Program-made: the position numbers and the translations under genes | Notes under the pieces: model-generated | Databases searched by the model: none | What the model saw: the letters and a program-made list of their open reading frames with translations, nothing else | Told to the model about the DNA's origin: nothing | Source of the DNA: Euzebyales bacterium | GTDB lineage: Bacteria; Actinomycetota; Nitriliruptoria; Euzebyales; JAHELV01 | Direction of reading: 5' to 3' | Assembly (NCBI GenBank): GCA_035461305.1 | Contig: DATHVN010000112.1 | Coordinates: 1-35,953 of the forward strand | Length of the DNA stretch: 35,953 nucleotides | Part shown: in pieces, positions 1 through 17,809 of the stretch | How positions within the stretch are numbered: the first letter of the stretch is position 1 | How the letters are laid out: each line of letters begins with the position of its first letter

Positions 1-2909
1 TGACCGGCCTCGGCCTGCCCCTCGAGGCTGACCCGCATCCCACCGGCGGTCTTGGCCGCACGGTCCTCGGCGAGCTGGGCGGGACCAGAGGCGTCGGCGT
101 CGCCGACGACGAGCTCGTCCTCGACGAGCACAGCGGTCATCGTCAGAGCGGATCGCGATGAGGTGCATCCACGCCTCGTGGCTGCGGGTAACGTCAGCGA
201 TCGGCTGGCCGGTTTCGGCGTCGGTCAGGCGGAGAGTCAGGCGCGTCCGCTGGGCGGGCGCGGCCGTGGGCGCGGCATCGATGACGGCCTCAACTTCGGC
301 CTCCTCAGCCTCGACCGGGTCGGCCTCGGTCGTCATCATCACGCTCATCGCCGGGCGCATCGGCATGCCGGTGCCCTGCATCCACGCCAGCACGCCTTTC
401 ATGCCGCGCTGCGCGCCCTCAGTCTCGGCCAGGCGCATCGCGCCGGCGCCGACCACGAGCGCCAGGAGTGCCACGACGACCAGGTACGCGTAGTCGCGGA
501 TGCGCGTGCGCAACGGCGGCGAGAGGATCTCGCGGACCGTGGCGGGCTGGCGGAAGCCACGCAGCCGCAGCGCGTTCGTGACGACGCTGACCGAGCTCAT
601 GGCCATCGCCGCGGCGGCGAGCACCGGGTCGAGCAGCAGCCCGGTGGCGGGGTACAGCGCACCGGCGGCGACGGGGATCAGCAGCACGTTGTAGGCGAAC
701 GCCCAGAACAAACCCTGCTTGATCGTCGCGACCGTCTTGCGGGACAGCGCGATCGCGCTGGTGATACTGCGCAGGTCACCGCCGATCAACGTGATGTCGG
801 ATGCGGCGATGGCGACGTCGGTGCCGGTGCCGATGGCGATGCCCAGGTCGGCCTGAGCCAGCGCGGGTGCATCGTTGATGCCATCACCGACCATCGCCAC
901 GACCCGGCCGTCGGCCTGCAGCCGCGCGACCTGCTCGGCCTTCTGGTGCGGCAGCACCTCGGCGAGCAGGTGGTCGATGCCGGCGTCGCGAGCGACGGCG
1001 CGCGCGGTGGCGGTTGTGTCGCCGGTCAGCATCCACACGTCTAGGCCCAGTGCCTGCAGCTGTTCGACGGCCTGGGTCGACTCGGGCTTGAGGCTGTCGG
1101 CGACCGCGATCAGACCTGCGGGGTGGCCATCGACCGCGACGAACATCGGCGTCGCGCCCTGCGCCGCCTGCCCCGCCGCGACGTCGGCCAGACCGTCGAG
1201 GACCATCCCGTGGCGGTCGAGCAGCGCGGCGTTGCCGATGACGACGTCGCGGCCGTCGACCCGTGCGGTGATCCCGTGACCGGACACGGCCTCGAAGCCT
1301 TCTGCGGCCGGCGGCGCGATGCCCTGGTCGTGGGCGTCGGTGACGATCGCTTCGCCGAGCGGATGCTCGGAACCGACCTCGGCCGCGGCGACCGCGCGAG
1401 CAGTTCACGCGCGGCGGTCTCGGCCGTCCACCCCAGCCCGTTGCCTGTGAGCGGCACGACCGCCACCACGCTCGGGCGCCCGCGGGTCAGCGTGCCGGTC
1501 TTGTCCAGCACGATGGTGTCGATGCGGCGCGCCTGCTCCAGCGCCTCGCCGCCGCCGATCAGGATGCCCAGCTCGGCCGCCTTGCCGGTGCCGACCATGA
1601 TCGCCGTCGGCGTGGCCAGTCCGAGCGCGCAGGGGCACGCGATGATCAGCACGGCGATCGCGGTGCTGATCGCGAACGTCAGGCGCCCCACGTCGGGCCC
1701 GACGACCATCCAGACGACGAACGTCAGCGCAGCGGCGGCGATGACCGCCGGCACGAAGTACGCCGAGACCGTGTCGGCCAGCCGCTGCATCGGCGCGCGC
1801 GAGCCCTGGGCGTCCTCCACGAGCCGCACGATCTGCGCCAGCGTGGTGTCGCGGCCGACGTGGGTCGCGCGGAACACGAACGACCCGGTGCGGTTGATCG
1901 TCGCGCCGATCACCGTGTCACCCGGCGCCTTGTCGACCGGCAGGCTCTCGCTGGTCAGCATGCTCTCGTCGACCGTCGACGCACCCTCGGTGACCTGCCC
2001 GTCGACCGGGACCTTCTCGCCGGGACGCACGCGGACGAGGTCGCCGACCACGACCTGCTCGAGCGGGATGTCACGCTCGACGCCGTCGCGGATGACCCGC
2101 GCGGTCCTGGCCTGCAGGCCCATCAACGCCCGGATCGCCCCCGCGGTCTGCTTCTTGGCGCGGGCCTCCATCCACTTGCCGAGCAGGATCAGCGCGATGA
2201 TGACGCCTGCGTTCTCGTAGTAGACGTGCAGCGGAAAGCCCCACTGCTCGGCTACGCCCGGCCACAACGTGACGAACGCGCTGTAGCCGTACGCGACGCT
2301 GGTGCCCAGCGCCACCAGCGTGTGCATGTTGACGCTGCCGTGGCGCGCGGCCGCCCATGCCGCGCTGTAGAACATCCGGCCGGCCCAGAACTGGATCACC
2401 GTCGCCACAACCAGCAGCGCCGGCATCACCAGGTCCATCGCGTCGATCGGCAGCGGCACGTACATCAGCGCCATCATCGACAGGCCCGCCGTCAGGCTGA
2501 CCTGCCACTTGCGCTTCAAGCCCGCCAGCTCCCGATCTCGCTGCACGTCCCGTTCATCGGCGGGCTCGCCCGCCGTGGGATGCGGTGTCGCGTCGGCGGG
2601 CACCAGTCCGGCGCGCGGCACAGACGGGTCGTGCCCCTCGCCAGCCGCCACGCCAGCCGACAGCGTCGCCGTGTACCCCGCGCTGGCCACCGCGGCCTCC
2701 AGGGCCGCCACATCGGTCGCCGCCGGGTCATCGACAACGGTTGCCCGCTCGGTCGCGAGGTTGACGCTGGCCTGCTCGACGCCGTCGACCTTGCCCAGCG
2801 CCTTCTCCACGCGTCGCACACACGACGCGCACGTCATGCCGCCGATGTCGAGTGTCAGCTCACGGGTGGTGCGCGTCGGGACGGCCGTGGTCCGGTCGTC
2901 GGTGCTCAT
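1..2909 (-). CDS. copA: Copper-translocating P1B-type ATPase, frameshifted, C-terminus beyond window edge
   Basis: Exports Cu(I) from the cytoplasm by ATP hydrolysis through an aspartyl-phosphate intermediate. An N-terminal HMA domain has GMTCASC at residues 24-30. The transmembrane CPCALGL lies at about 1618-1641, the phosphorylation motif DKTGT at 1491-1505, and SEHPLGEAI near 1350-1380. The hinge GDGIND lies at about 871-888. The start ATG at 2909 follows GGAGGACGTC. The frame is lost near 1396, where one missing base after ELLAR restores [11 protein letters not shown]. The core domain reads through to about 500. It is followed by an extension (RLTDAETG, then [14 protein letters not shown]) that resembles the FixH-like tails of copper proteins. 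Near 140 the sense continues only in another frame ([14 protein letters not shown]), so a second lesion is likely. copZ lies 36 bp upstream in the same operon. The family call is certain; whether it is intact is not. Confidence 0.9.
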
Positions 2910-15543: not shown

Positions 15544-17235
15544 TCATCGGCTGTTGGCGGGCGGGGGCTGCTCACGGTCACGCTCCACCACTGGCGGTGT
15601 GGTGAGGAATCTGTGGATCATCGGCACCGTCACCGCACCTTCACCGGCCGCGGCGGCGACCCGCTTGACCGAGCCGGCGCGCACATCGCCCGCCGCGAAC
15701 ACACCGGGCATGCTGGTCTCGAACGCTGCGGGCGCGCGGCTCAGCGGCCACCGATCGGGCGAGATCTCACCACCCGTGCGCACGAAGCCGCGCTCGTCCC
15801 GTTCGATCTCGTCCGGCAGCCAGTCGGTGTGTGGTTCGGCTCCGATCAGGATGAACAGTCCCGCCGCGGGGACCTCACGATCCTGGCGGGCGGCCCTGTC
15901 GCGGAGCGTGAGCCGCTCGAGGTGCCCGGAACCGCCACCGCCGACGACCTCCGTCTGCAGGAGCACCTCGATGCGGTCGTGCGCGCGCAACTCGCGGATG
16001 AGGTAGTCGGACATCGATCTACCCAGGTCCGGTCCACGAACGACGAGCGTCACGCGCGCCGCGTACCTCGCGAGGTGCAGTGCGGCCTGCCCCGCCGAGT
16101 TCCCCGCTCCGACGACGAACGCGTCGAGCCCCTCGAGCGCCGCAGCCTCGCCCAGCGCCGCACCGTAGAAGACACCCGCGCCGACCAGCGCCTCCAGGGA
16201 CGCGACACCCAGCCGGCGGTACGACACGCCGCACGACAACAGGACCGATCGCGACGCCACCTCGACCCCGCTCGACACGGTCAGCTGCAGCACGTCGTCG
16301 GCCCGCAGGGCAACCGCCGAGCGCATCAGGTGGAACGACGCGCCGAACCGGGTCGCCTGCCGCTCGCCGTGCACGGCGAGACGACGCCCCGTCACGCCGC
16401 GGGGGAAGCCGAGGTAGTTGCGGATCATCGAACTCGTGCCGGCCTGTCCGCCGATCGCCTCATGCTCGATCACGAGGGTGTCCAGGCCCTCCGACGCGGC
16501 GTACACGGCGGCGCCCAGCCCGGCGGGTCCCGCGCCGATGACCACCAGGTCGTAGACGTCCGAGCCGACATCACCCGCGAACCCGAACTGGTCGGCCAGT
16601 TCCTGAAGCGACGGGGCGCTCAACGGCGGCGCGTCCAGCACCTCGACGACGGGCAACCCCGCATCGGGGTCCGCGCGGTCGAGGATGCGTCGCCCCTCAC
16701 TGGAATCAGGAGGGTAGATCCCGGCTGGGATGGCGTGACGTCGCAGGATGTCGACCATCGTCCGCTCGGCCACCGCCGTCTCAGAACCGACGATCTTGAC
16801 GGCGTCCACGACCGGTCTGGTGATCCATGCCCAGTCCGCCAGGTACTCGGTGAGCATGCCGAAGAAGTCCTCGTCCCGCGGCCCGGTCGGCTTCGACACG
16901 GCGCTGTCGATGCGGCCGAGCGCCACGGCCCGTCGGACGTCACCCCCAGCCGCCCCGACACCACGATCGTGGAGCAGGATCCGCGTGGCGGTGGGCACGA
17001 GTCCCCGGACCTGCACGAGGAACGCGATGCTGTCGACCGACCACATGTCGACGTCGGCGAGCACCATCGCGACTGGCGCATCGGCGGCCTCGAACGCCAG
17101 CAACCGCTCGAGTGCGGCTCTCGCTGACGAGCATGCCTCAATGGCGTAGTCACGCGCGAAGCGACTTGCGAGCTCGTCGGTCATGCGCGCCCGTTCGCCG
17201 GCGTCCTCGATGACCAGCAGCAGGACAGGGTTCAT
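15544..17235 (-). CDS. Response-regulator/glutaredoxin-like/thioredoxin-reductase-like fusion flavoprotein
   Basis: 563 residues in three parts. Residues 1-130 resemble a receiver domain (VLLLVIEDAGERARM; AMVLADVDMW with D61/D63 at the usual phospho-acceptor strand; a late SAVSKP). Residues 143-215 resemble a glutaredoxin/thioredoxin fold (VKIVGSETAVAERTM...LPVVEVLD) without any CxxC. Residues 227-563 are a thioredoxin-reductase-like FAD/NAD(P) domain with GAGPAG at 234-239, GGQAGTSSMIRNYLGFP, GAGNSAG at 377-383 and GVFAAGDVR at 511-519. Where thioredoxin reductase has CATC the sequence reads GAGVFYGAALGE, so the redox cysteines are absent. It should bind FAD and a nicotinamide nucleotide but cannot be a classical disulfide reductase. 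ATG at 17235 overlaps the stop of the UBP gene (ATGA), giving tight translational coupling. Confidence 0.85.
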   Translation of the reverse strand: MNPVLLLVIEDAGERARMTDELASRFARDYAIEACSSARAALERLLAFEAADAPVAMVLADVDMWSVDSIAFLVQVRGLVPTATRILLHDRGVGAAGGDVRRAVALGRIDSAVSKPTGPRDEDFFGMLTEYLADWAWITRPVVDAVKIVGSETAVAERTMVDILRRHAIPAGIYPPDSSEGRRILDRADPDAGLPVVEVLDAPPLSAPSLQELADQFGFAGDVGSDVYDLVVIGAGPAGLGAAVYAASEGLDTLVIEHEAIGGQAGTSSMIRNYLGFPRGVTGRRLAVHGERQATRFGASFHLMRSAVALRADDVLQLTVSSGVEVASRSVLLSCGVSYRRLGVASLEALVGAGVFYGAALGEAAALEGLDAFVVGAGNSAGQAALHLARYAARVTLVVRGPDLGRSMSDYLIRELRAHDRIEVLLQTEVVGGGGSGHLERLTLRDRAARQDREVPAAGLFILIGAEPHTDWLPDEIERDERGFVRTGGEISPDRWPLSRAPAAFETSMPGVFAAGDVRAGSVKRVAAAAGEGAVTVPMIHRFLTTPPVVERDREQPPPANSR

Positions 17236-17522
17236 CCGGTGCCAACGTCGACCAGGCTCTCGTCGACGAAGCACCACGCCCATTCCTCACCCGGCTCAAC
17301 CGACCGCGCGATCGGATGCCCGACCGCGTCCGCATGACGATGTGCGTGGCGGTTCTTCGACGAGTCGCAGCATCCGACTTCACCACAGGTCAGGCACATC
17401 CGCAGATGCACCCACGGATCGCCGATCGCGAGGCACTGGGCGCAGCCCTCGGACCGCGGCTGCGCGTCGCGGACCGCATCCAGGTGGGAGCACGCCGGCG
17501 ATCGCCCGGTCATGCGCTGCAC
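17232..17522 (-). CDS. UBP-type zinc-finger protein
   Basis: A 96-residue protein that is essentially one ZnF-UBP domain: CSHLDAV near residue 11, GCAQCL at 26-31, WVHLRMCLTCGEVGCCDSS at 37-55, NRHAHRHADAVGHP at 57-70, and PGEEWAWCFVDE at 77-88. The Cys/His ligands of the family are all present. In eukaryotes this domain binds the free C-terminus of ubiquitin; actinobacterial copies are stand-alone and their partner is unknown. GTG at 17522 is preferred because GCGAGG lies six bases upstream; ATG at 17513 is the alternative. It overlaps the reductase-like fusion by four bases, so the two products should be made in fixed ratio. Confidence 0.85.
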   Translation of the reverse strand: MQRMTGRSPACSHLDAVRDAQPRSEGCAQCLAIGDPWVHLRMCLTCGEVGCCDSSKNRHAHRHADAVGHPIARSVEPGEEWAWCFVDESLVDVGTG

Positions 17523-17809
17523 GAACCACCTCGCGTTGGACAGCAACCCCACGAGGCGCGTGACCTCGCCATCCGGTCTCCTCCTGACTGACACCGCACG
17601 GTACTGCAACGCCACCCGACCATCCAATCGGTCGTCGTAGCGACTCGAGCCACAACCCGCGAGGCATCGTCTCCTGCGATCACTTCGGTCACGTTGACCG
17701 GTTCGTAGGGCGATCGTCCGTCGCTTCGTGACACAGGCTCGCCATACTGGACATCCGGTGATCGCCCTCCGGCAACGACGGTCCGGGCCGCAGTCGAAGG
17801 GAGCGAACG
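17523..17809. other. Divergent intergenic region
   Basis: 287 bp between the UBP gene and the membrane-protein gene. It should hold the promoters for both directions. I see no RNA gene and no convincing -35/-10 pair. CATACT near 17742 is a weak -10-like match for the plus strand. Confidence 0.4.

Follow-up and report, generated by a model that had tools for sequence, protein, structure and literature searches.

Several described protein families resemble parts of the locus analyzed here. In thioredoxin reductase (TrxR), the nucleotide is brought up to the flavin in the flavin-reducing conformer, and enzymes of the same fold that lack the CxxC dithiol are known, namely the ferredoxin-NADP reductases. 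Among flavoproteins tied to transport, KefF, a flavodoxin-fold quinone reductase, regulates KefC. The ZnF-UBP fingers of eukaryotic proteins are represented by that of HDAC6, where R1155 is the residue that we take to anchor the free C-terminal carboxylate of the bound tail. In bacteria, zf-UBP domains are represented by RPA1320 of Rhodopseudomonas palustris (PDB 2ida), a structural-genomics deposit; apart from this structure, no function for bacterial UBP fingers was found in the searches made, and UBP goes unmentioned in PMC1779556, which surveyed prokaryotic ubiquitin precursors in 2006.

In the window, the whole 35,953-nucleotide stretch that was analyzed, a UBP zinc-finger gene (17232..17522) and a gene encoding a flavoprotein with receiver (REC), glutaredoxin (Grx)-like and TrxR-like domains (15544..17235; 563 residues, here called P0001, recognized by profile matches, motifs and a structure model) lie on the minus strand. 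As the preliminary description had read it, they overlap through an ATGA (17232..17235), composed of the UBP stop TGA at 17232-17234 and the flavoprotein ATG at 17233-17235. The UBP gene encodes 96 residues from a GTG at 17522, which is its most likely start and is preceded, 3 bases upstream, by a GAGGTGG (17526..17532, minus strand) read from the sequence as the likely ribosome-binding site; an ATG at 17513 is a possible alternative. The product matches zf-UBP with an E value of 8.9e-14, above the Pfam cut-off, over a domain encoded by 17247..17444 (53 bits). A start at the same -4 offset is also available in loci L111, L082, L056, and L137. L111, from a genus-mate, carries the orthologous pair, with 78% protein identity in the flavoprotein; because it keeps the overlap, and because nucleotide similarity to it is confined to 15612-17551 with nothing beyond, the pairing in the window is not due to chance. 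The flanking MarR and flavin monooxygenase genes were rejected as members of the unit, since similarity to the genus-mate ends at the pair. Elsewhere in the window, a heavy-metal P-type ATPase gene (1110-2909, minus strand) has a hydrolase domain that stops early, and its frame looks shifted near the end.

The association of the two genes is strongly supported by comparison across genomes. Within a survey of 296 genomes of one phylum, taken to be Actinomycetota since its unnamed members cluster with named Streptomyces and Nocardia in the tree, 58 carry both a UBP and a member of the flavoprotein family, out of 75 with UBP and 71 with the family (odds ratio 55, Fisher p 3e-33); counted by genus, both occur in 42 of 192, with 54 holding UBP and 52 the family (odds ratio 45, p 5e-22). 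About a quarter of the family genes (26 of 103, with approximately 0.3 expected) lie within 5 kb of a UBP gene, which answers the possibility, raised in the preliminary description, that the two would rarely be adjacent in other genomes; the remaining 77 do not, a count that speaks against the explanation favored below. When loci were picked from named genomes by the flavoprotein alone, UBP was found beside it in six phyla (Actinomycetota, Cyanobacteria, Bacteroidota, Acidobacteriota, Pseudomonadota, and Verrucomicrobiota), and the linkage undergoes about 25 changes on the family tree. Ribosomal-protein genes neighboring the family in mycobacteria were rejected as functional partners, as they reflect one conserved location. 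It is of note that the third UBP of the window's own genome (L117, G000:C79) faces a flavoprotein copy split over several frames, representing either a decayed gene or sequencing errors. With the statistical partner of bacterial UBP now clear, the question of its function becomes directly testable.

In the structure model of P0001 (pLDDT 90), a receiver-like domain is followed by one of thioredoxin fold and then by a TrxR core. The latter (residues 227-545; 15601..16557, minus strand), delineated by profile match and model, is recognized by Pfam as Pyr_redox_2 (E 2e-30), and the top NCBIfam match is TIGR01292 TrxB, with 197 bits falling below the cut-off of 343. Both nucleotide-binding motifs are kept, as had been proposed: the FAD-binding GAGPAG (residues 234-239; 16519..16536), whose glycines are invariant across the alignments and reproduce the GxGxxG of TrxB, and the NAD(P)-binding GAGNSA (residues 376-381; 16093..16110), although a single Arg (R400) is left of the HRRxxR that follows it in TrxR. 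GAALGE (residues 358-363; 16147..16164) indeed stands where CxxC would be expected, and Cys is absent from this site in 146 family members. The preceding Grx-like or GST-N-like domain (residues about 143-222; 16570..16809), whose relatives match Glutaredoxin (PF00462) or GST_N_2, also lacks CxxC, and the only two cysteines of the whole protein are at positions 35 and 335. The preliminary description was thus correct in noting the missing redox cysteines, but these are not special to P0001: no redox-active CxxC is present in any of the 146 relatives, making the absence of the dithiol a trait of the family. A classical thioredoxin system is thereby rejected, and the view of the pair as a coupled module of another kind holds, given this loss and the very strong co-occurrence with UBP. 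It also follows that the annotation 'thioredoxin-disulfide reductase' is contradicted, and that genes so named in many genomes cannot encode such enzymes; proteins annotated as 'cyclic nucleotide-binding domain-containing thioredoxin-disulfide reductase' or 'FAD-dependent oxidoreductase' belong to the same family. Among the matches listed for the modeled core, flavin-reducing TrxR conformers were the best (e.g. 5mh4, TM 0.89), a likeness that is suggestive only.

The REC domain of P0001 (residues 1-135; 16831..17235, minus strand), which the preliminary description had named, goes unseen by Pfam even at an E value of 1; it is recognized through its relatives, which match the REC profile, and through the model, where the alternating strand and helix order of a receiver is predicted with pLDDT above 90 over the first 90 residues. 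What did not hold is its canonical character: the residues corresponding to D12, D13, D57, T87, and K109 read I-E-D-H-K, with D12 to I and T87 to H clearly lost and D13 replaced by E, and a phosphorylatable receiver was therefore rejected. In the family at large, the D-D-D-T-K signature is kept in all 73 REC-flavoproteins that adjoin a histidine kinase with a cyclic nucleotide (cNMP)-binding sensor domain, and in only 5 of the 34 other REC members, two of which lie beside other kinases (L281 and L282) and one at a contig end (L269). The first of these loci (L281, G000:C86:18383-30500), likewise from the window's own genome, contains the flavoprotein next to other histidine kinases and receivers, with neither cNMP kinase nor UBP. 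Kinase presence is here defined by an adjacent gene, distant kinases falling outside this definition; by this measure there is no cNMP-sensor kinase gene beside the window pair, and one is present in the same genome, at L076. P0001 belongs to a kinase-less clade of 26 members (SH-aLRT 99), where receiver decay has taken many different forms. An independent-pairs sign test of kinase presence against receiver integrity offered 4 independent pairs, too few for significance, the pattern being largely traceable to what was probably a single ancestral kinase loss in this clade; receiver decays are nevertheless numerous. As a pattern in sequence, the coupling of kinase and receiver is clear, as is its loss in the window copy, whose decayed receiver and lack of an adjacent kinase gene mark it as a kinase-uncoupled derivative.

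This kinase is the strongest third partner of the flavoprotein and UBP, and an HE[LIM]NNP H-box is found in 67 of 81 such kinases. As judged from gene content, the canonical cassette consists of a cNMP-binding-domain histidine kinase, a dithiol-free REC/Grx-like/TrxR-like flavoprotein, and a small UBP finger. Family members carry either REC, mostly with the kinase adjacent, or, in a sister branch, a cNMP domain fused directly onto the flavoprotein in place of REC; none of the 32 cNMP-fused members has an adjacent kinase, and UBP accompanies both types. The window pair, a CxxC-less flavoprotein of this family with a linked UBP, is an offshoot of the cassette, and its intact counterpart is the L076 locus of its own genome (G000:C188:17068-29268), with a REC-flavoprotein, a cNMP kinase, and a convergent KefC-type antiporter bearing TrkA_N and a C-terminal UBP. 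At L130:5986-7743, a cNMP-histidine kinase-UBP fusion directly adjoins the REC-flavoprotein gene, and another UBP, this one unfused, lies upstream. In Tsukamurella, three overlapping genes bear the RefSeq names FAD-dependent oxidoreductase, ATP-binding protein, and UBP-type zinc finger protein. On a Tsukamurella plasmid (L299, 8553-10261), UBP precedes genes for S-(hydroxymethyl)mycothiol dehydrogenase and an MBL-fold hydrolase. This pair, which serves the thiol-dependent detoxification of formaldehyde, was seen in no other genus. The parts of the cassette all come from known domain families; neither their assembly nor the receiver signature nor the fusions to kinase and transporters were found in the literature searched (open-licence full texts, exact terms), and the cassette, although widespread, is apparently undescribed in bacteria. 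The kinase, the receiver decay, and the fusions of UBP to kinase and ion transporters had been overlooked in the preliminary description, whose coupled module otherwise stands.

The closest solved structure to the window UBP is RPA1320 (51% identity in structural alignment, TM 0.81), around which bacterial UBPs group as a family. Among 128 of these, L-R, CC, and EPGE.W are near-invariant. All zinc ligands had been thought present in the window protein, which is nearly so: the position of the last zinc Cys of HDAC6 is occupied by Asp, as in 69% of the 128. The designation as a 'ubiquitin-tail-type' finger is not supported, since the position aligned to the tail-anchoring Arg is Ser in the window protein, and Ser (77%) or Asp in the bacterial set, and the following position, Tyr in HDAC6, is Ser in 98%. 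The fold and the zinc ligands of a ubiquitin-binding ZnF-UBP are thus there, apart from the one Asp, and the anchoring Arg is not; with both positions replaced, binding of a ubiquitin tail by the eukaryotic chemistry is unlikely.

Fusions and neighborhoods point to a link between UBP and membrane transport. UBP is found in the architectures Na_H_Exchanger-UBP, Na_H_Exchanger-TrkA_N-UBP, LtrA-UBP, and cNMP-kinase-UBP; exchanger, KefC-type, or LtrA genes are fused to or lie beside many UBPs, and DHA2-like transporters lie beside eight. In Pelatocladus, Nostoc, and Deinococcus, the genes flanking those of the flavoprotein and kinase also include LtrA, bestrophin, and DHA2. One LtrA membrane protein is fused to UBP at L143:4588-6243, in Pelatocladus (L155) LtrA comes after UBP, and plasmids of Nostoc and Deinococcus carry LtrA close to the flavoprotein and kinase. 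Approximately half of UBP loci show neither a transporter nor a flavoprotein partner, which speaks against the explanation favored below; UBP must therefore serve other purposes or have partners farther away.

We give an even chance to the reading in which the window pair represents a signaling cassette that has been reduced and uncoupled from its kinase; in such a cassette, a sensor-run flavoprotein would act via UBP as adaptor, probably on membrane transport. The cNMP-fold sensor would control the flavoprotein, either through a phosphorelay or by direct fusion; the flavoprotein would bind FAD and a nicotinamide nucleotide and hand electrons to no thiol; and UBP, as its binding partner, would pass the output on to its target, in most cases a membrane transporter such as a Na+/H+ or KefC-type antiporter, LtrA, or a DHA2 transporter, much as KefF acts on KefC. 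Control of the window copy could then come from the redox state of the nucleotide alone or from another receiver input; the redox-sensing role suggested in the preliminary description is possible. That such cassettes constitute an undescribed bacterial system, running from cNMP-fold sensor through thiol-free flavoprotein to a UBP finger that gates ion antiporters and other transporters, is a more tentative and somewhat doubtful proposal. If true, the UBP finger would act in prokaryotes as an adaptor with no relation to ubiquitin, response regulators with a flavoenzyme as output would be an unusual class, and, should the transporter link hold, redox or cyclic-nucleotide sensing would be joined to ion homeostasis in many phyla.

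Other explanations start from the same features. The flavoprotein could oxidize NAD(P)H slowly and, through the peroxide or electrons it yields, oxidize or reduce the finger cysteines, leading to zinc release and a change of partner; the retention of flavin and NAD(P) motifs without a dithiol would suit such a switch, as would the cysteine-rich UBP with its near-invariant CC pair, but the cysteines are not uniformly conserved, since the first CxH pair is missing from a quarter of UBPs and Asp or Asn often takes the place of Cys at the third site, and we regard this explanation as unlikely. An equally improbable proposal views the flavoprotein as a sensor-regulated electron-transfer enzyme, with UBP docking an electron carrier: TrxR-like ferredoxin-NADP reductases are matched by sequence and the model fits flavin-reducing conformers well, and yet the sequence is closer to TrxR than to these reductases, and no ferredoxin gene was recognized among the recurrent neighbors.

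The fold match to the fingers of HDAC6 and USP5 invites the idea that UBP binds a C-terminal protein tail, the flavoprotein reporting redox state to a protein-quality-control pathway. A ClpB disaggregase gene does adjoin the UBP/flavoprotein pair in L102, L109, L202, and L206, upstream and in the same direction in the former two. ClpB is, however, a minority context, and the Ser or Asp at the Arg position, with Ser after it, weighs further against an idea to which we attach slightly less weight than to the two preceding ones. Finally, UBP and the flavoprotein might not interact directly and owe their proximity to shared membership in stress or soil-lifestyle gene islands; transporters, ClpB, and universal-stress-like proteins are found nearby, and both genes are carried by large genomes. 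Stop/start overlaps, the fact that only the two-gene unit is conserved between genus-mates, the kinase-UBP fusion, and repeated re-linkage in six phyla would be hard to reconcile with mere proximity, which is very unlikely.

Several described systems share features with the pair and differ from it in others. TrxB (TIGR01292; PDB 5uth, 9xub) shares with P0001 the fold, the FAD motif, and the NAD(P) Rossmann motif, and differs by its CxxC and full HRRxxR and by the absence of REC and Grx-like domains; P0001 also scores below its family cut-off. The best full-length fold match is AhpF (PDB 1hyu, 4xvg), in which accessory N-terminal domains likewise precede a TrxR core, but both the N-terminal domain and the core of AhpF bear redox-active CxxC pairs, of which P0001 has none, and its own first domain is a receiver. 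The ZnF-UBPs of HDAC6 and USP5 resemble the window UBP in fold and most zinc ligands, while bacterial UBPs have Ser at the Arg and Tyr positions, Asp at the last zinc Cys, an LR insertion, and the CC pair. In KefC with its ancillary KefF, a soluble flavoprotein is likewise tied to a TrkA_N-bearing CPA2 antiporter; the folds of KefF and the cassette flavoprotein are unrelated, and the comparison concerns only the manner of working.
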